DNA from: Halorubrum xinjiangense
Lineage (GTDB): Archaea; Halobacteriota; Halobacteria; Halobacteriales; Haloferacaceae
Direction: 5' to 3'
Length of the DNA: 64,000 nt
NCBI RefSeq assembly: GCF_900102375.1
Contig: NZ_FNBO01000009.1
Span: 1 to 64,000, forward strand
Shown: piece after piece, positions 5,721 to 62,658 of the stretch
Layout of the letters: every line of letters starts with the position of its first letter
Position numbering within the stretch: position 1 is the stretch's first letter
Program-made: the position numbers and the translations under genes
The notes under the pieces: model-generated
Database searches by the model: none
Told to the model about the DNA's origin: nothing
The model's input: only the letters and a program-made list of their open reading frames with translations

Positions 5721-5884
5721 GGCAAGAGAGGGACGCGATCCGTCCAAATTCCGCGTTTTGACCGAACGGCAGCCAGACCGAAACGTCCGGTCGCCGAAGG
5801 CCGCTTGTCGAGTGAGAACGGGAGTGGATATCGCAGATCGGCAGCCACGACATAGTATTTAAAGAACCGTGAGCGGCGGCGACG

Positions 5885-6230
5885 AGTTTTAAAAAAGAGA
5901 GTGCGGTGGCGCGCCTGCGAGCGGCCGCCACCGGCGGCCGCGAGCCAGCCCGCGAGGGACGCCGCGAGCGAAGCGAGCGGCGAGGCTGGGGAGGTGTGAG
6001 GTGCGGGTGCTGTGCGGTGCGGGTGGGACTCAAAGGGGCAGTCGTTGAGGGCGGTGTAGCCGACGTAAGCACCGGAATGAGGGAGCGAAGCGACCGAATG
6101 AGGAGCGCAGCGAGGCTACACCGCCCTCAACGACTGGGGCTTTGGATGCCCTCACCGCAGCAGCGTCGATTACTTATAAGTAGTCGACAACGACACCGCA
6201 ATCCTCTTTATAAACAACCACGCCACCACA
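5885..6230 (+). repeat. Dispersed structured element, copy A
   Basis: One of four copies (also near 23.2-23.6, 28.9-29.15 and 42.35-42.78 kb). Order of parts: an A/T-rich TATA-like box, a gcggtggcgcg block, a gaggctggggagg block, ggactcaaaggggcag, a long stem, then cgactggggctttgg and one or two TATA-containing tail units. In this copy the arms 6039-6061 and 6114-6136 are perfectly complementary over 23 bases and enclose a 52-base loop. Reading frames over the element are not conserved between copies because of single-base length changes, so it is probably non-coding. The 5721-5884 stretch before it shows no gene. Confidence 0.75.
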
Positions 6231-6276
6231 CTGAGCAACGTACTACACGCACTCCTGCCATCGATCCCCGCTATCG

Positions 6277-6771
<495 letters not shown>

Positions 6772-6800
6772 GTAATGAGACAACCACGATTACTGGATCC

Positions 6801-8122
<1,322 letters not shown>

Positions 8123-23108: not shown

Positions 23109-23189
23109 ACGGGAAGGGAGTCGCGGCCGGCGATTAAACCGGTCGGTTCGAGATGAAACGGAGGGTTGCCCGGTGAACTGAACGTCTCC

Positions 23190-23625
23190 AAATCTACAGT
23201 TGCTTAGTTATAAATGACTGAGACTGGATTACCGACGAACACCGCCAAAGCCCCAGTCGCTCGGTTATAAATATCCGACTGTAGATCGACGGGAAACACC
23301 TCCAAAGCCCCAGTCGCGACGGCTCGGTGCGCTCGCTGTCGTTCGAAAGGCGCGCAGCGCCTTTCGTGATGACGAGACGCCGAAGGCGTCTCGAACCACG
23401 GTCCTCGGCGCTCACTCCGTTCGCGCCTGCGGTCCTTGCGTCGCGCGCCTTCGCCCTCGCGACTGCCCCTTTGAGTCCCGCCCCGCACAGCACCGCAACC
23501 GCGCCTCACGCCTCCCCAGCCTCGCGGCTCCCTCCGCTTCGCTCCGGTCGCCGCGTCCCTCGCGCGTGCGACTCGCGGCCTGCGGCCGCTCATCGGCACG
23601 CGCCACCGCATTCCAGTTATAAATA
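23190..23625 (-). repeat. Dispersed structured element, copy B
   Basis: Minus-strand copy. Read 5' to 3' on that strand: TATA-like TTTATAAC near 23617, gcggtggcgcg, gaggctggggagg, ggactcaaaggggcag, a loop, then cgactggggctttgg. The outer pairing is shorter here (CAGTCGCGA with TCGCGACTG, 23312-23320 and 23457-23465), and the loop holds two extra perfect hairpins, one with CGAGACGCCTTCGGCGTCTCG-like arms. Two tail units each end in a TATA-like box and repeat the gactggggctttgg block (around 23245 and 23303). No frame is conserved with the other copies. This element fills the 23109-23657 gap. Confidence 0.75.
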
Positions 23626-23657
23626 GCAGAGCCAGAGATTCCCAATCCCCTACTCGC

Positions 23658-28859: not shown

Positions 28860-29150
28860 CGTTTATTTATAAATGCGGAGCGGTGGCGCGTGCCGACGAG
28901 CGGCCGACAGGCCGCGAGCCGTGAGCCGCGAGGTTGGGGAGGTGTGAGGCTGCGGTGCTGTGTGGGGCGGGACTCAAAGGGGCAGCCGTCGAGGCGGGCG
29001 CAGGCGACGTAAGCACCGAACGAGGGAGCGATAGCGACCGAGTGAGGCGCGCAGCGAGCCTGCGCCCGCCTCGCTGGCTGGGGCTTTGGAGGTGTCGTCC
29101 GTCAGTTTGCTAGCAGTCATTTATAAGTGAACGACTAGATTTTAAAAGGC
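28860..29150 (+). repeat. Dispersed structured element, copy C
   Basis: The TATA-like tttataaat at 28863 is followed by gcggtggcgcgtgcc, the gaggttggggagg block and ggactcaaaggggcag. Arms 28983-29005 and 29058-29080 pair at 21 of 23 positions. Their sequence differs from copy A on both sides in a matching way. Then ggctggggctttgg and a TATA-containing tail (ttataagtgaacgac). It occupies most of the 28853-29263 gap between the ABC operon and the next gene. Confidence 0.78.
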
Positions 29151-29263
29151 GTTCACCGACCAGTCCGCGACGACGAACGACCGAGTCACTCCGCCGAACC
29201 CGTCAAAGTCGGACGCGTATCGAGGCGACACGCCTTACCCCACGGACACAGTAAAACACGTAT

Positions 29264-42344: not shown

Positions 42345-42785
42345 GATTGTTTATAAAAGAACCGCGGTGGCGCGTGCCGACGAACGCCCGCAGGGCGTGA
42401 GTCGCACGCGCGAGGGAGTCGGTGGTCCGGAGCGAAGCGGAGGACCATCGACGAGGCTGGGGAGGCGTGAGGCTGCGGTTGCTGTGCGGGTGGGGTGGGA
42501 CTCAAAGGGGCAGTCGGGAGGCGGGCGCAGGCGTTCACGAGAGCAAAGCTCTCGTGAGCCAATCAGAACGCGGAGCGTTCTGATGACGACGCAAGCACCG
42601 CAGCGAAGGAGCGGTAGCGACTGAGCGAGGCGCGCAGCGAGCGTGCGCCCGCCTCCCGACTGGGGCTTTGGCGGTGTTCGCCGTCGATCCGTCGACAGTC
42701 ACTTATAAACAAACGACTGGGGCGTTGGCAGTAGTCACGACACCGCTGGTGACAACAATTTATAAATAAACGGCGACGCCGACAG
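42345..42785 (+). repeat. Dispersed structured element, copy D
   Basis: TATA-like tttataaaag then gcggtggcgcgtgcc, the gaggctggggagg block and gggactcaaaggggcag. Arms 42511-42532 and 42641-42662 pair at 21 of 22 positions. The loop carries two more perfect hairpins, TCACGAGAG...CTCTCGTGA and ATCAGAACG...CGTTCTGAT. Three tail units follow, each with a TATA box (ttataaac, atttataaataaac). It fills the gap between the thermosome promoter and the KH gene. Confidence 0.78.
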
Positions 42786-46003: not shown

Positions 46004-47290
46004 ATGAAGCCAGAAATGAGTCGAACCGTCCGAACCTTCGAGGCAACGATTACGAACCAGCAACAGGTTCGTGACGACCTCGACCAACTCGGGTGGGCCG
46101 CCTCAAAACTCTGGAACGTCGGTCGCTACTACGCACAACAACAGTGGGACGAAACGGGCGAGATTCCCGGTGACGGGGAACTCAAAGCCGAACTCAAACG
46201 CCACGAACGCTACACGGACTTACATTCTCAATCCAGTCAGCGCGTTCTCGAAGAACTCGCTGAGGCGTTTAACGGCTGGTTCGGGAAGCGTCGGAACGGC
46301 GACGACCGTGCCCGACCGCCTGGCTACCGGAAGAACGGAGACTCCCACCCGCGTTCAACTGTGTCCTTCAAAGCGGCTGGCTTCAAGCACGACGCACAAT
46401 TCACCCGTGTTCGCCTCTCAAAAGGACGAAACCTCAAAGAACACCGTTCGGACTTCATCCTGTGCGAGTACCAGACTCGCCCGGATGTTGACCTGACCGA
46501 GTGGGACATCCAACAGGTTCGATCCGTCTACAGGCGCGACGAGTGGCGACTCCAATTCGTCTGTCGCACCACTATCGACCCGGAACCGCCGGGCGACAAC
46601 GTGGCTGGTGTTGACCTCGGGATCTGCAACTTCGCCGCCGTCTCCTTCGGCGATGAGTCGGTGTTGTATCCCGGTGGCGCACTCAAAGAGGACGAATACT
46701 ACTTCACGAAAAAGAAAGCCAAGTGCGACGATTCCTCATCCCGAGAGGCTACACGTCTCGACCGCAAGCGGACGGGGCGTCGAACGCACTTTTTGCACGC
46801 ACTCTCGAAAGCAATCGTGGAGGAGTGTGTCGAACGGGGTGTTGGAACGCTTGTCGTTGGCGACCTCGGCGGCATCCGAGAAGACGACGAGAACGGTGAC
46901 TCTCGGAATTGGGGCGATCACGGCAACCTCGACTTGCACGGGTGGGCGTTCGACCGCTTCACGACGCTTCTGGACTACAAGGCGGAAGCCGAAGGCATCG
47001 GCGTGGAGCTGGTGTCGGAACATGATACGTCGAAGTCGTGTTTAACGTGTGGCCACACAGACGAGAACCAGCGTGTGGAACGCGGACTATACGCGTGTGA
47101 GGAGTGCGACACGGTTGCGAACGCAGATGTGAATGGCGCTGAGAACATTCGGCAAAAGGTACTCCCGAGTCTCGCCACGGATGGCGGCGATAGGGATAAC
47201 GGCTGGTTGGCACAGCCAGCGGTTCACCTGTTCGACCGTAGTGAGGGCGTTTTCGCCCCACGAGAACAGGTCGTGAACCGCGAACCGTAA
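46004..47290 (+). CDS. tnpB: TnpB-like RNA-guided nuclease family protein, altered RuvC motif
   Basis: 428 residues. The first RuvC Asp204 is in AGVDLGICNF and Asp375 is in ANADVNGAEN, and the zinc finger uses Cys346, Cys349, Cys365 and Cys368. At the position of the second catalytic Glu the motif reads VVGDLGGIRED, with Gly286 where VED or MED occurs in the other two copies. Glu292 or nearby acids might substitute. It may be a divergent active form or a nuclease-impaired form. A TATA-like box lies about 27 bases before the ATG. Confidence 0.9.
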   Translation: MKPEMSRTVRTFEATITNQQQVRDDLDQLGWAASKLWNVGRYYAQQQWDETGEIPGDGELKAELKRHERYTDLHSQSSQRVLEELAEAFNGWFGKRRNGDDRARPPGYRKNGDSHPRSTVSFKAAGFKHDAQFTRVRLSKGRNLKEHRSDFILCEYQTRPDVDLTEWDIQQVRSVYRRDEWRLQFVCRTTIDPEPPGDNVAGVDLGICNFAAVSFGDESVLYPGGALKEDEYYFTKKKAKCDDSSSREATRLDRKRTGRRTHFLHALSKAIVEECVERGVGTLVVGDLGGIREDDENGDSRNWGDHGNLDLHGWAFDRFTTLLDYKAEAEGIGVELVSEHDTSKSCLTCGHTDENQRVERGLYACEECDTVANADVNGAENIRQKVLPSLATDGGDRDNGWLAQPAVHLFDRSEGVFAPREQVVNREP

Positions 47291-47341
47291 TATCCCAACG
47301 CGGTCGGGAATCCTCGCCCTTCAGGGCGGGGAGGATGTCAA
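47170..47341 (+). ncRNA. Candidate omega-RNA 3' scaffold of the element at 45878-47341
   Basis: The 3' end of tnpB plus the terminal hairpin CCTCGCCCTTCAGGGCGGGG is the expected scaffold. The guide just outside the right end begins TCGTAGACGTCTCCCGTTCG, sequence from the end of the neighbouring membrane-protein gene. The 5' limit is a guess. Confidence 0.4.
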
Positions 47342-56041: not shown

Positions 56042-58126
56042 TCACTCGGAGGCGACCGGCTCGTAGTCGCGTCGCTCCGGCCGGTCCGGCGCCGAGATCC
56101 GCACCGCGCACTGCTTGAGGTTCGGTTCGGTGGAGTCCGGGTCGACCGCGGACAGCGTGAGCTCGTTGATCGCCCCGTAGTGGATCGGCAGCCACACCAT
56201 CCCGGGCGGGACGTCGTCGTTCGGGCTGACCGCGACTCGCACCTCGGACCGGCGGGACCCGATCACCGTCTCTCCCCGGTCGAACGCCGCCAGGTGCCGG
56301 GCGATCGTCTCCGGGTGGATCCGCGCCGTCGGAAGCGCTCCCCCGTCGTCTCCCGTCCGGACGCCCGTGTTGTAGACGCCGTCCGCGCGCCCCGTCGTCA
56401 GCGTGAGCGGGTACTCCCCGTCGACCGGTTCGGGCACCTCGCAGTGCGTTCCGGTCGAGAACCGGGCGCGGCCGGAGGGCGTCCGGAACGACCATTCACC
56501 GTCGTCGTAGTACCGGTAGCCGCCCTCCGCGTCGGCGGTCGGCGCGGGCCAGCGGACCGCCAGTTCGTCCGCCAGCCGCTCGTACGAGATCCCGGACAGG
56601 TCAGCCGTCGTGCCGGCGGTGAGGTCGCGAATCTCGTCGAAGGTCGTGGCCGGGTCCAGCGGCGGCTCGTCGAACAGGCCGGAATGAATTCGGTTGCCGA
56701 TCGCCGCGATGACGTCGAGGTCCTGCCGGGCCTCCCCCGGGGGATCGGTCGCCGCGGTGACCCGCGAGACACGCCGCTCCATGTTCGTCGTCGTCCCCTC
56801 GGACTCGCCCCACGTCGCCGCCGGGAGGACGACGTCCGCCAGCTCGACGGTGTCCGACCGGAACGCGTCCTGAACGATCAGGAACGCGTCGTCGAGCGCG
56901 TGCTCGACGTGGCCCGCGTCGGGCATCCCGGCGACCGGGTTCGTCGCGACCGTCCAGCAGACGTCGACGTTGTCGCGGGCGAGCTCGTCGACGATGCGCA
57001 CGAACCCCGGACCGGGGGCGTCGGGGAGCCGCCCGAGCGGCACGTCCCACGCGTCGGCGACGTCGCGCCGGGCGGCCGAGTCGTCGAACGGGCGGTAGCC
57101 GGGCCAGGTCCGCTTCGAGGCGCAGACGCGGTTCCCCATCGAGTTGGCCTGGCCGGTCAGCGAGAAGGGCCCGCTCCCCGGACCCATATTCCCCGTGGCG
57201 AGACAGAGGTCGATGAGCGCCCGCGCCGTCCCGGTGCCCTGAACGCTTTGGTTGACGCCCATCCCCCAGTAGATCAGCGAGTCCGCGACCAGCGCGTCGG
57301 CTATTTCGCGGACGCGCTCGGGCGAGACGTCCGCGGTCGCCGCAGCGTCGGCGACGCTCGGGAGCGACTCGACGGTCGCGGCGTACCCCTCCGTGTGTCG
57401 GTCGACGAACCGGTCGTCGACCGCGCCGGTGTCGACGACCCGCGCGAGGACGGCCCGCGCCAGCGCGAGGTCGGTCCCGGGCTCCGGCCGGACGTGACGG
57501 TCGGCGTCGGCCGCCGTCCGCGTCTCGACGGGGTCGACGACGATCAGTTCGCCGTCGCCCGCGGCGGCGCTGTTCTCGATCCACGAGTGTAACACCGGGT
57601 GCGCGACGGCGGGGTTCGCGCCCCAGACGACGTGGGTGTCGGCGGCGGGAATATCGTCGTACGTCGGCGGGGGCGCGTCGCTCCCGAACGCCTGGGCGTA
57701 CGCCGCGACGGCCGAGGCCATACACAGCGTCGTGTTCGCGTCGTAGTGTCGCGTCCCGACCGCGCCGCGGGCGACCTTTCCGAGCGCGTATGCGGCCTCG
57801 TTCGTTTGCTGCCCGCTCCCCAGCACGGCGACGTTGTCCGGATCCTCGCGGATGGCCTCGATGAGCCGCGTCGTCACGACGCCGAGCGCGGTGTCCCAGT
57901 CCGTCGGTCGGAGCGACCCGCCGCGGCGGATGAGCGGCCGCGTCAGCCGCTCCGCGCCCGGGTCGACGGTCTCGCTGACCCCGCGCTGGCAGTTGCGGCC
58001 GGCGGTCGCCGGATGATCCGGGTCCCCGGAGACGTCGACGAGACGGCCGTCGTCGGCCGACTCCGCCTGGAGGTAGCCGCACCCGACCGCGCACCGCATA
58101 CAGGTGGTCGGTTTCCGGTCGCTCAT
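56042..58126 (-). CDS. nasA: Assimilatory nitrate reductase, molybdopterin oxidoreductase
   Basis: 694 residues. An N-terminal 4Fe-4S motif has Cys9, Cys12, Cys16 and Cys46 (TTCMRCAVGCGY and NCQRG). Mo-bis-MGD binding parts include LGSGQQTNEAAYALGK and DANTTLCMASAV, plus the Cys-containing WGANPAVAHPVL segment, and the C-terminal MopB domain (TLTTGRADGVYNTGVR). It reduces nitrate to nitrite in the cytoplasm and lacks a Tat signal. Its own divergent gene cluster begins 370 bases upstream with nirA. Confidence 0.93.
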   Translation of the reverse strand: MSDRKPTTCMRCAVGCGYLQAESADDGRLVDVSGDPDHPATAGRNCQRGVSETVDPGAERLTRPLIRRGGSLRPTDWDTALGVVTTRLIEAIREDPDNVAVLGSGQQTNEAAYALGKVARGAVGTRHYDANTTLCMASAVAAYAQAFGSDAPPPTYDDIPAADTHVVWGANPAVAHPVLHSWIENSAAAGDGELIVVDPVETRTAADADRHVRPEPGTDLALARAVLARVVDTGAVDDRFVDRHTEGYAATVESLPSVADAAATADVSPERVREIADALVADSLIYWGMGVNQSVQGTGTARALIDLCLATGNMGPGSGPFSLTGQANSMGNRVCASKRTWPGYRPFDDSAARRDVADAWDVPLGRLPDAPGPGFVRIVDELARDNVDVCWTVATNPVAGMPDAGHVEHALDDAFLIVQDAFRSDTVELADVVLPAATWGESEGTTTNMERRVSRVTAATDPPGEARQDLDVIAAIGNRIHSGLFDEPPLDPATTFDEIRDLTAGTTADLSGISYERLADELAVRWPAPTADAEGGYRYYDDGEWSFRTPSGRARFSTGTHCEVPEPVDGEYPLTLTTGRADGVYNTGVRTGDDGGALPTARIHPETIARHLAAFDRGETVIGSRRSEVRVAVSPNDDVPPGMVWLPIHYGAINELTLSAVDPDSTEPNLKQCAVRISAPDRPERRDYEPVASE

Positions 58127-60541: not shown

Positions 60542-62658
60542 ACGACCCCGTCCCGACCACCTGTATGCGGTGCGCGGTCGGGTGCGGTCACCTCACCGGG
60601 CGGGTCGACTCCGGGTACGGGATCGACGGCGTCCGCGGGGACGTCGCACATCCGACGAACCGCGGGCTCGCGTGTTCACGCGGCGTCGAGGAGACGCAGG
60701 ACCCCGACGGCGAGTGGCTGACGCGGCCACACGTCCGGCGGGGGGGCGAACTGCGCCGGACCACGTGGGACGTCGCGCTCTCGCGGGTCGTCGACGAGTT
60801 CCGCGACGCGCTCGACCGGGACCGCGACGGCCTCGCGGTGCTCGGGAGCGGCCAACAGACGAACGAGGCCGCCTACGCCCTCGGGAAGCTGGCCCGGGGC
60901 GGCTTCGGGACGCGACACTACGACGCGAACACGACGCTGTGCATGGCGAGCGCCGTGACGGCGTACAACGAGGCGTTCGGGAGCGACGCGCCCCCGCCGA
61001 CCTACGACGACATCGGGGACGCGGCGACCCACGTCGTCTGGGGCGCGAATCCGGCCGTGGCCCATCCGGTGCTGTTCCGGTGGATCGCCGAGAGCGCGGG
61101 CGAGGACGGGAGCCGACTGATAGTCGTCGACCCCGTCGAGACGAAGACCGCGAAAGCGGGCGACCGCCACGTCGCGCCCGACCCGGGGACCGACCTCGCG
61201 CTGGCGCGGGCCGTCCTCGCCCGAGCTATCGAGCGCGGCGACGTCGACGAGGCGTTCGTGGAGGCGGCGACGACCGGTTTCGAGGCGCTCCGGGAGTCGC
61301 TGCCGGAGCCGGAGTCCGCGGCGGCGACCGCGGGCGTCTCCCCCGCGACCGTGGACGCGCTCGCGGACGCGCTCCGTGATCCGACGCTCGTCTACTGGGG
61401 AATGGGCGTCAACCAGAGCGCGCAGGGGACCGACACGGCCGGCGCGCTGATCGACCTCTGTCTCGCCACGGGGAACATGGGACCGGGAAGCGGCCCCTTC
61501 TCGCTGACCGGCCAAGCGAACTCGATGGGGACCCGCGTCTGCTCGTCGAAAGGGTCGTGGCCGGGGATGCGGTCGTTCGGTGACCCGGCCGAGCGGCGGA
61601 CGATCGCCGAGGCGTGGGGCGTGCCCGTCGAGCGCCTCCCGGATGACTCCGGCCCCGGACCGGTCGGGATCTGCGAGGCGATAGACGGCGGCCCCGTCGA
61701 AGCGGTGTGGGCCGTCGCGACGAACCCGGCCGCGGGCCTGCCCGACGCGTCGGCCGCCCGCGAGCGCCTCCGGGAGACGTTCCTCGTCGTTCAGGACGCC
61801 TTCCACACCGACACGACCGAGCTGGCGGACGTCGTCCTCCCGGCGGCGACGTGGGGCGAGTCCGAGGGCACGGCGATGAACATGGAGCGACGGATCTCCC
61901 GCGTCCGCGCCGCGTCGGACCTCGCGCCGGCCGTCCGGACCGACCTGGACATCATCACGGCGATCGGCGAGGCGATCGCGCCCGGGCTGTTCCCGGCGAC
62001 CGAGCCGGCGGCCGTGTTCGACGAGTTCGCCGCGCTGACCGCCGGCACCGACGCCGACTGCTCCGGCGTCTCGTACGACCGGCTCCGGGAGGAGCGGGCC
62101 GTCCGCTGGCCCGCCCCGTCCGCGAAGTCGGCGGGCGGCTACCGGTACTACGACGACGGCGAGTGGTCGTTCCGGACGCCCTCCGGCCGCGCCCGGTTCT
62201 CGACCGGAACGCACGGCGAGGTCCCGGAGCCGACAGACGAGTCGTATCCGCTCACGCTGACGACGGGCCGCGAGCCCGACGGGTACAACACCGGGATCCG
62301 GTCGCGGGACGAGGGGGCGGACCCCGCGGTTGTCGCACGGGTGAACCCGGACACGATCGCGGACCTGAACGGCGGGCACGCGTTGGGCGACGAGGCGGCC
62401 GTCGAACCCGGCGAGACGGCGCGTCTCTCCTCCCGCCGCGGGTCGATCGCCGTCCGCGTCGCGACCGACACAGCTGTCCCCGCGGAAATGGTCTGGCTGC
62501 CGATCCACCGCGCCGCGACGAACGACCTGACGCTTCCGGCCACCGACCCGCGCTCGAACGAACCGAACTACAAGCAGTGCGCGGTCGCACTGGCGCCGGC
62601 AACCGGCGAGACCGCCGCGGAGGAGCCGCATCGAAGCAAGCCGACCGCCGACGACTGA
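60538..62658 (+). CDS. nasA: Second assimilatory nitrate reductase-like molybdopterin oxidoreductase
   Basis: 706 residues from a GTG at 60538. Cys9, Cys12, Cys16 and Cys46 form the Fe-S site. It shares long stretches with the other NasA at 56042-58126, including SGQQTNEAAYALGK and SDAPPPTYDDI. The pair looks like an old duplication flanking nirA, one copy on each strand. Both keep their Cys and Mo-site motifs, so both may be active. Confidence 0.92.
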   Translation: MNDPVPTTCMRCAVGCGHLTGRVDSGYGIDGVRGDVAHPTNRGLACSRGVEETQDPDGEWLTRPHVRRGGELRRTTWDVALSRVVDEFRDALDRDRDGLAVLGSGQQTNEAAYALGKLARGGFGTRHYDANTTLCMASAVTAYNEAFGSDAPPPTYDDIGDAATHVVWGANPAVAHPVLFRWIAESAGEDGSRLIVVDPVETKTAKAGDRHVAPDPGTDLALARAVLARAIERGDVDEAFVEAATTGFEALRESLPEPESAAATAGVSPATVDALADALRDPTLVYWGMGVNQSAQGTDTAGALIDLCLATGNMGPGSGPFSLTGQANSMGTRVCSSKGSWPGMRSFGDPAERRTIAEAWGVPVERLPDDSGPGPVGICEAIDGGPVEAVWAVATNPAAGLPDASAARERLRETFLVVQDAFHTDTTELADVVLPAATWGESEGTAMNMERRISRVRAASDLAPAVRTDLDIITAIGEAIAPGLFPATEPAAVFDEFAALTAGTDADCSGVSYDRLREERAVRWPAPSAKSAGGYRYYDDGEWSFRTPSGRARFSTGTHGEVPEPTDESYPLTLTTGREPDGYNTGIRSRDEGADPAVVARVNPDTIADLNGGHALGDEAAVEPGETARLSSRRGSIAVRVATDTAVPAEMVWLPIHRAATNDLTLPATDPRSNEPNYKQCAVALAPATGETAAEEPHRSKPTADD

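Follow-up and report, generated by a model that had tools for sequence, protein, structure and literature searches.

A dispersed, folded intergenic element with covarying hairpins and conserved G runs in Halorubrum xinjiangense and other haloarchaea

Copies of the element in the window and in the genome

The analysed stretch of the Halorubrum xinjiangense genome (positions 1 to 64,000 of contig NZ_FNBO01000009.1, hereafter the window) contains near its beginning a sequence with two distant arms that differ between copies but remain complementary, which raises the question of what kind of element this is and whether it acts as RNA or as DNA. All four copies reported in the initial annotation are present in the window (Table 1), and the conserved blocks and arms quoted for them are exact; in copy A, TTGAGGGCGGTGTAGCC (6045-6061) pairs with GGCTACACCGCCCTCAA (6114-6130). 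The element is thus real, yet it is more numerous than these four copies and modular, consisting of three hairpins (P1, P2 and P3), tail repeats and optional double-hairpin inserts. It represents a dispersed, folded, intergenic element of approximately 250 bases with about 150 copies in its own genome, where ACTCAAAGGGGCAG at up to one mismatch yields 153 matches in 3.26 Mb compared to three with a reversed control. The predicted folding energy of copy A is -140.6 kcal/mol (z -6.0). For the comparisons below, 96-98 copies from the own genome and about 150 from relatives were read.

Table 1. Copies of the element in the window and features of copy A
Feature	Position	Strand	Remarks
Copy A	5903-6145	+	tail beyond
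Copy B	23609-23305; with tail 23180..23635	-	module M1 in apical P3, repeated tail units
Copy C	28880-29089; with tail 28862..29165	+	tail beyond
Copy D	42364-42671; with tail 42345..42780	+	module M2 in P3, repeated tail units
Copy A, pair of AT-rich boxes: ATTTAAA (5857-5863) and TTTTAAAA (5887-5894)	5857..5894	+	30 bases apart
Copy A, conserved start GCGGTGG, then hairpin P1 containing a CGAG/CGAG tandem G-A motif	5903..5955	+	
Copy A, P2 hairpin; arms vary fully among copies	5959..5982	+	65 different stems
Copy A, invariant block GAGGCTGGGGAGG	5982..5994	+	invariant alignment columns
Copy A, GGG-T-GGG-ACTCAAAG-GGG-C, comprising G runs 1-3 and the P3a 5' strand	6021..6039	+	
Copy A, P3b: long covarying stem, apical domain GACGTAAGCACCG..GAGGAGCGCAGCGAGG	6040..6135	+	98-99% paired
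Copy A, 3' strand of P3a, consisting of G run 4 with CTTTGG	6137..6145	+	
Copy A, tail with AT boxes: one degenerate unit	6146..6220	+	

Two further features of the window were observed. Just 3' of copy A, direct repeats (6273-6445 and 6797-6969; 79% identical) carry IS605/IS1341-like hairpin ends (CATCCTCCCCGCGCTAAAGCGCGAGGATTCC). Two long inverted stretches (56103-57860 and 60804-62585), which are 76-81% complementary, are probably facing paralogous gene clusters.

Architecture of the element

In Halorubrum, the 5' part of the element consists of an AT box, GCGGTGG, the hairpins P1 and P2, the invariant GAGGCTGGGGAGG and a G/T-rich joint, and is followed by a 3' part comprising GGG-Y-GGG-ACTCAAAG-GGG-C, the long hairpin P3, GGGG-CTTTGG and at least one tail unit. 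Most of P2 is missing from copy C. The tail units (~64 bases), each of which contains an AT box and repeats the 3' arm foot CGRCTGGGGCTTTGG, are arranged in tandem with up to several units per copy, and are near identical inside one locus and different between loci.

The AT box of Halorubrum copies is centred 8-14 bases 5' of GCGGTGG, and about a quarter of the copies possess a second box, which lies 30-34 bases further 5' in 18 of 21 two-box copies. The proposed function of the box just before the conserved start as a TATA box is doubtful, since a box 11-15 bases before GCGGTGG would place a normal archaeal transcript start inside P1; the upstream second AT box would fit better.

Double-hairpin inserts of 45-65 bases (M1-M4), the stems of which vary jointly (e.g. 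L219, L226, L036, L042 and L212), occur at fixed places in the element. M1 and M2 are located on the 3' and 5' sides of the P3 apex, respectively, M3 lies between P1 and P2, and M4 is situated within P1 or the P3 foot. Module M2 of copy D is the double hairpin TTCACGAGAGC..GATGAC, and M1 was identified at the identical place in another family of the order (L337). These inserts may be optional RNA domains or, by analogy with the SMRs of Haloquadratum, tiny mobile repeats.

The apical domains of P3 fall into two classes, GACGYAAGCACCGCA..GAGGAGCGCAGCGAG and GUCGUCUCAGCGACCCCUAUCC..GGAUAUGUCGCUGAGCGAC. The optional 5' partners of the core also differ, with P1-P2 in Halorubrum, hairpin repeats in Halorussus and a second core in head-to-head orientation in another family. 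Head-to-head core pairs, ~33-60 bases apart, were found in one other family and one further genus. The arms of these pairs (L327-L337; G060, G176) differ, and the spacer is bordered by CCCACC and GGTGGG, like REPIN pairs. In Halorussus genome G104 (L275-L294), tandem hairpin repeats flank the core (CGGTGACACARTCCACCG on the 5' and GTAGCGAGCGGGCGGGGGCTTTCGAGG on the 3' side), and the 3' repeat units match the 3' arm of P3.

Covariation and the distinction between RNA and DNA

The covariation between the arms, which had been claimed from four copies, holds across 87 distinct copies: 97.7% of the covariation cells, which count sequences (related copies included) rather than independent events, are paired, and two-sided compensatory change was found in 28 of 43 pairs, a level that 0 of 500 shuffles reach. 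The covariation score of 0.384 compares to 0.136±0.005 for shuffled alignments and to at most 0.056 for slid partners. P1 (helices 1 and 2) is 95-97% paired with two-sided change in 10 of 13 pairs, and helices 4-7 of P3 are 98-99% paired. The most conserved helix, the P3a base (SAAAG/CTTTS), also changes jointly from CAAAG/CTTTG to CGAAG/CTTCG, and its Halobaculum version is GAAAG/CTTTC. The variable Y-R foot pair of P3 is represented by C-G (112), T-A (59), T-G (37) and C-A (4).

G-T and A-C are equal with respect to DNA pairing, whereas RNA tolerates G-U alone. Over unique stems, G-T exceeds A-C in P1 (40 vs 10) and P3 (36 vs 15), which is not predicted by DNA pairing and favours the reading of the element strand as RNA, while P2 exhibits no excess (4 vs 3) and copies outside Halorubrum only a weak one (10 vs 4). 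This excess does not amount to proof of RNA, as the relatedness of the copies and a strand-specific pull towards G could both play a part. The original proposal of a structured RNA or a hairpin-forming DNA element is nevertheless supported, as the covariation passes both the shuffled and the slid controls and the G-T excess favours the former. No Rfam 15 family matches the element at or above its gathering threshold, and plant miRNA hairpins are the sole matches of copy A at E<=5.

Conserved G runs at the foot of P3

The foot of P3 forms a symmetric GGG/GGG internal loop, directly 5' of which GGG-Y-GGG is located. All four G runs are present in 286 of 338 copies, including 246 of 293 in Halorubrum and 40 of 45 in other genera, compared to a frequency of 3% for the upstream GGG pair in shuffled sequence. 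Of 20 further Halorussus copies, however, 11 have just GG as the second run. Outside Halorubrum, the bases beside the G runs are C- and A-rich, so general G-richness is not the cause. Based on their sequence and position, it is plausible that the four runs form a helix-clamped G-quadruplex between the two parts of P3. ViennaRNA with its G4 option predicted no quadruplex; to our knowledge, quadruplexes that span a helix lie outside its model.

Distribution among haloarchaea

Nearly all other Halorubrum genomes tested contain 4-176 copies each, and one Halorubrum species is without any motif match. In a pattern scan of GTDB genomes, the named matches listed were Halorubrum and one MAG labelled uncultured archaeon. 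The confinement to this genus suggested by the Halorubrum motif was overturned by a distant DNA search and by order-wide scans. Across the order, 92 of 155 genomes, belonging to 36 of 57 genera, contain a 17-base motif that allows C or G in the helix. A covariance model of the P3 core recovered the element from 47 of 89 genomes within the order, with copy numbers per genome that are lower bounds, and from none of 53 genomes in other parts of the phylum. Carriers identified by name are Halobaculum, Halorussus (g17; a label taken from plasmid matches rather than from genome labels), Haloarcula, Haladaptatus and Salinibaculum plasmids, with a partial match only in Natrinema. Apart from two 'hypothetical protein' calls, the plasmid regions that matched are free of annotation. 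A strong patchiness within Halorussus by motif count is not trusted, because genomes with 0-1 motif matches hold many copies by DNA similarity. Phage carriage was rejected, as phage records contained no match. The core motif is present on nine IMG/VR contigs (L200-L208), which may be viral or host DNA. A search of the literature outside subscription sources retrieved no description of the element. The family is real, abundant, structured and apparently undescribed.

Site occupancy and exchange between copies

At locus B, 12 of 20 Halorubrum species lack the element and have 14-63 bases in its place, and the remaining species contain it. Locus C is filled (intact or interrupted) in most of the 20 species, and close relatives have locus-specific tails in common there with different P1 and P2 hairpins. 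In genome G022 (L216), a transposon-like insertion interrupts the locus C element inside module M3. A Halorussus site between permease and ABC ATPase genes, the names of which were judged from reading frames alone, is filled in 10 of 12 species and empty in two.

At one orthologous locus with flanks of 90-91% identity, two Halorussus species encode different apical domains, class 1 in one and class 2 in the other. Within the own genome, the types of P1, P2 and P3 are unlinked, and the arms of P3 are strongly linked (MI 1.29 vs 0.30). The CGAAG/CTTCG pair is present in 23 of 24 sampled copies of genome G016 and in 4 of 96 copies of the own genome, 88 of which contain CAAAG and CTTTG, which shows homogenisation within a species. 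Such patterns reveal an exchange of entire hairpins between copies and fit gene conversion as its mechanism. Paralogues in the own genome reach an identity of at most 92.5% with no recent identical copies, thus recent jumps are not seen. Target duplication, a feature of MITEs, was not seen at two polymorphic loci, where flank divergence prevents a base-level placement of the ends, and no enzyme for moving the element was found.

The retention of the locus C site in most species could reflect a function. One alternative explanation holds that the copies are small RNA genes beneficial to the host, with a shared core that acts as binding site for one protein or for the ribosome and a copy number that sets the dose. 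The invariance of the unpaired blocks, the long retention at locus C and at one Halorussus locus, and the compensated change throughout a species, as though it followed a binding partner, would be in agreement with this function. We consider it unlikely in view of copy numbers ranging from 4 to 176 in one genus with one species lacking a motif match, the many sites that are empty in relatives, and the lack of a consistent promoter position.

Genomic context

Among the 149 copies for which both neighbours were called, by codon usage in the flanks rather than by annotation, 57 are flanked by convergent, 74 by tandem and 18 by divergent genes. Copies between tandem genes show no orientation bias (31 in the direction of the genes vs 43 opposite), and a role as 3'-UTR of the upstream gene was rejected on this ground. 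Gaps between copies along the genome are near random (CV 0.83). Such a context would be expected from insertions that are tolerated away from promoters.

The independence of placement from orientation, the enrichment between convergent genes and the head-to-head pairs in other families are also compatible with an element that operates at the level of DNA, with cruciform and G-quadruplex sites organising the chromosome or stopping replication or transcription and no RNA being involved. Given the excess of G-T over A-C in two of the three hairpins and the near-random spacing, this explanation also appears unlikely.

Relationship to transposable elements and guide RNAs

A derivation from IS200/IS605 elements by deletion, in the manner of PATEs or MITEs moved by a Y1 transposase, is suggested by the transposase-free palindromic repeats of this kind in Haloquadratum (PMC3119063) and by the IS605-type remnants adjoining copy A. 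Contrastingly, no Y1-type transposase is present in seven Halorubrum genomes that contain 10-100 copies each (G002, G004, G005, G016, G018, G019 and G028), the numbers of element and transposase do not track each other, and the hairpin sequences are variable, which makes such an origin very unlikely. A role of the IS200/IS605 Y1 transposase as helper was likewise rejected on account of its distribution. GUGGGACUGAAAG resembles the end of a CRISPR repeat, but an origin of the element as the remnant of a guide-like RNA, either a CRISPR handle or the scaffold of an OMEGA RNA, is extremely unlikely. No linkage to cas, tnpB or iscB was seen at the annotated plasmid loci, and the Rfam TnpB RNA family sot0042 (sense overlapping transcripts characteristic of TnpB genes) has its match at positions 47157-47332 of the window (158.9 bits) and not in the element.

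Proposed explanation and significance

The explanation we favour, with a probability of roughly 0.55, is a non-coding, intergenic family of structured repeats that recombine, are transcribed and are largely selfish, resembling REP/BIME in their working and belonging to no tested family. Transcription of the element strand into RNA is likely, and its four G runs may stack as a G-quadruplex that the two parts of P3 enclose and that the high K+ of the cells stabilises. The family would represent a non-autonomous, largely selfish repeat, whose insertion between genes would be rare and helped by a trans-acting factor recognising the folded RNA or a single strand. After insertion, copies would be reshuffled by gene conversion. 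More tentatively, and with considerable doubt, the element could belong to a family of transcribed and mobile RNA elements that extends across this archaeal class, reaches hundreds of copies at most and forms an archaeal counterpart of SINE-like RNA repeats. Its core would be a natural helix-clamped G-quadruplex, stable owing to the molar K+ of haloarchaea, and its uniformity would be maintained by gene conversion with compensatory change.

With approximately 35-40 kb of the genome and no entry in Rfam, the family would be among the most abundant structured elements of archaea. It would provide a natural test case for G-quadruplex RNA at molar K+, a case in which compensatory evolution can be seen directly as it spreads through ~70 dispersed copies of one species, and a marker for ectopic gene conversion in polyploid archaea. 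It also serves as a warning that haloarchaeal intergenic regions hold conserved structure unseen by gene annotation.

Comparison with known systems

In Spinach-type aptamers, a G-quadruplex RNA is clamped between helices. Like them, the element places its G runs within an internal loop that has a helix on either side, but it is natural and dispersed, and its quadruplex is putative. The streptococcal BOX and Bacillus bcr elements are modular, structured, non-autonomous repeats with internal units that vary in number; the element is likewise modular with variable unit numbers, whereas its sequence is unrelated and its tail units duplicate the 3' arm and a G run.

Within haloarchaea, the PATEs of Haloquadratum are transposase-free palindromic repeats with IS605-like ends (PMC3119063). 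The element is also a transposase-free palindromic repeat, and its double-hairpin inserts resemble the SMRs that hit PATEs (PMC3119063). Unlike PATEs, it has no IS605 end recognisable in an unsystematic comparison, and its inserts occupy fixed structural places.

Bacterial REP, BIME and REPIN sequences (PMC2817692, PMC3733652) agree with the element in several features, including more than 100 extragenic hairpin repeats per genome, few copies at divergent promoters, inverted pairs in some lineages and exchange between copies. In contrast to REP/BIME, the element is archaeal, 250 bases long and built of three hairpins with conserved G runs and tail repeats. As the RAYT/Y1 transposase that defines REP/BIME is missing in seven carrier genomes, we do not file it under REP/BIME. 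By analogy, REP/BIME nonetheless appears to be the nearest mode of life, and our best guess is that the element leads a selfish or BIME-like one.
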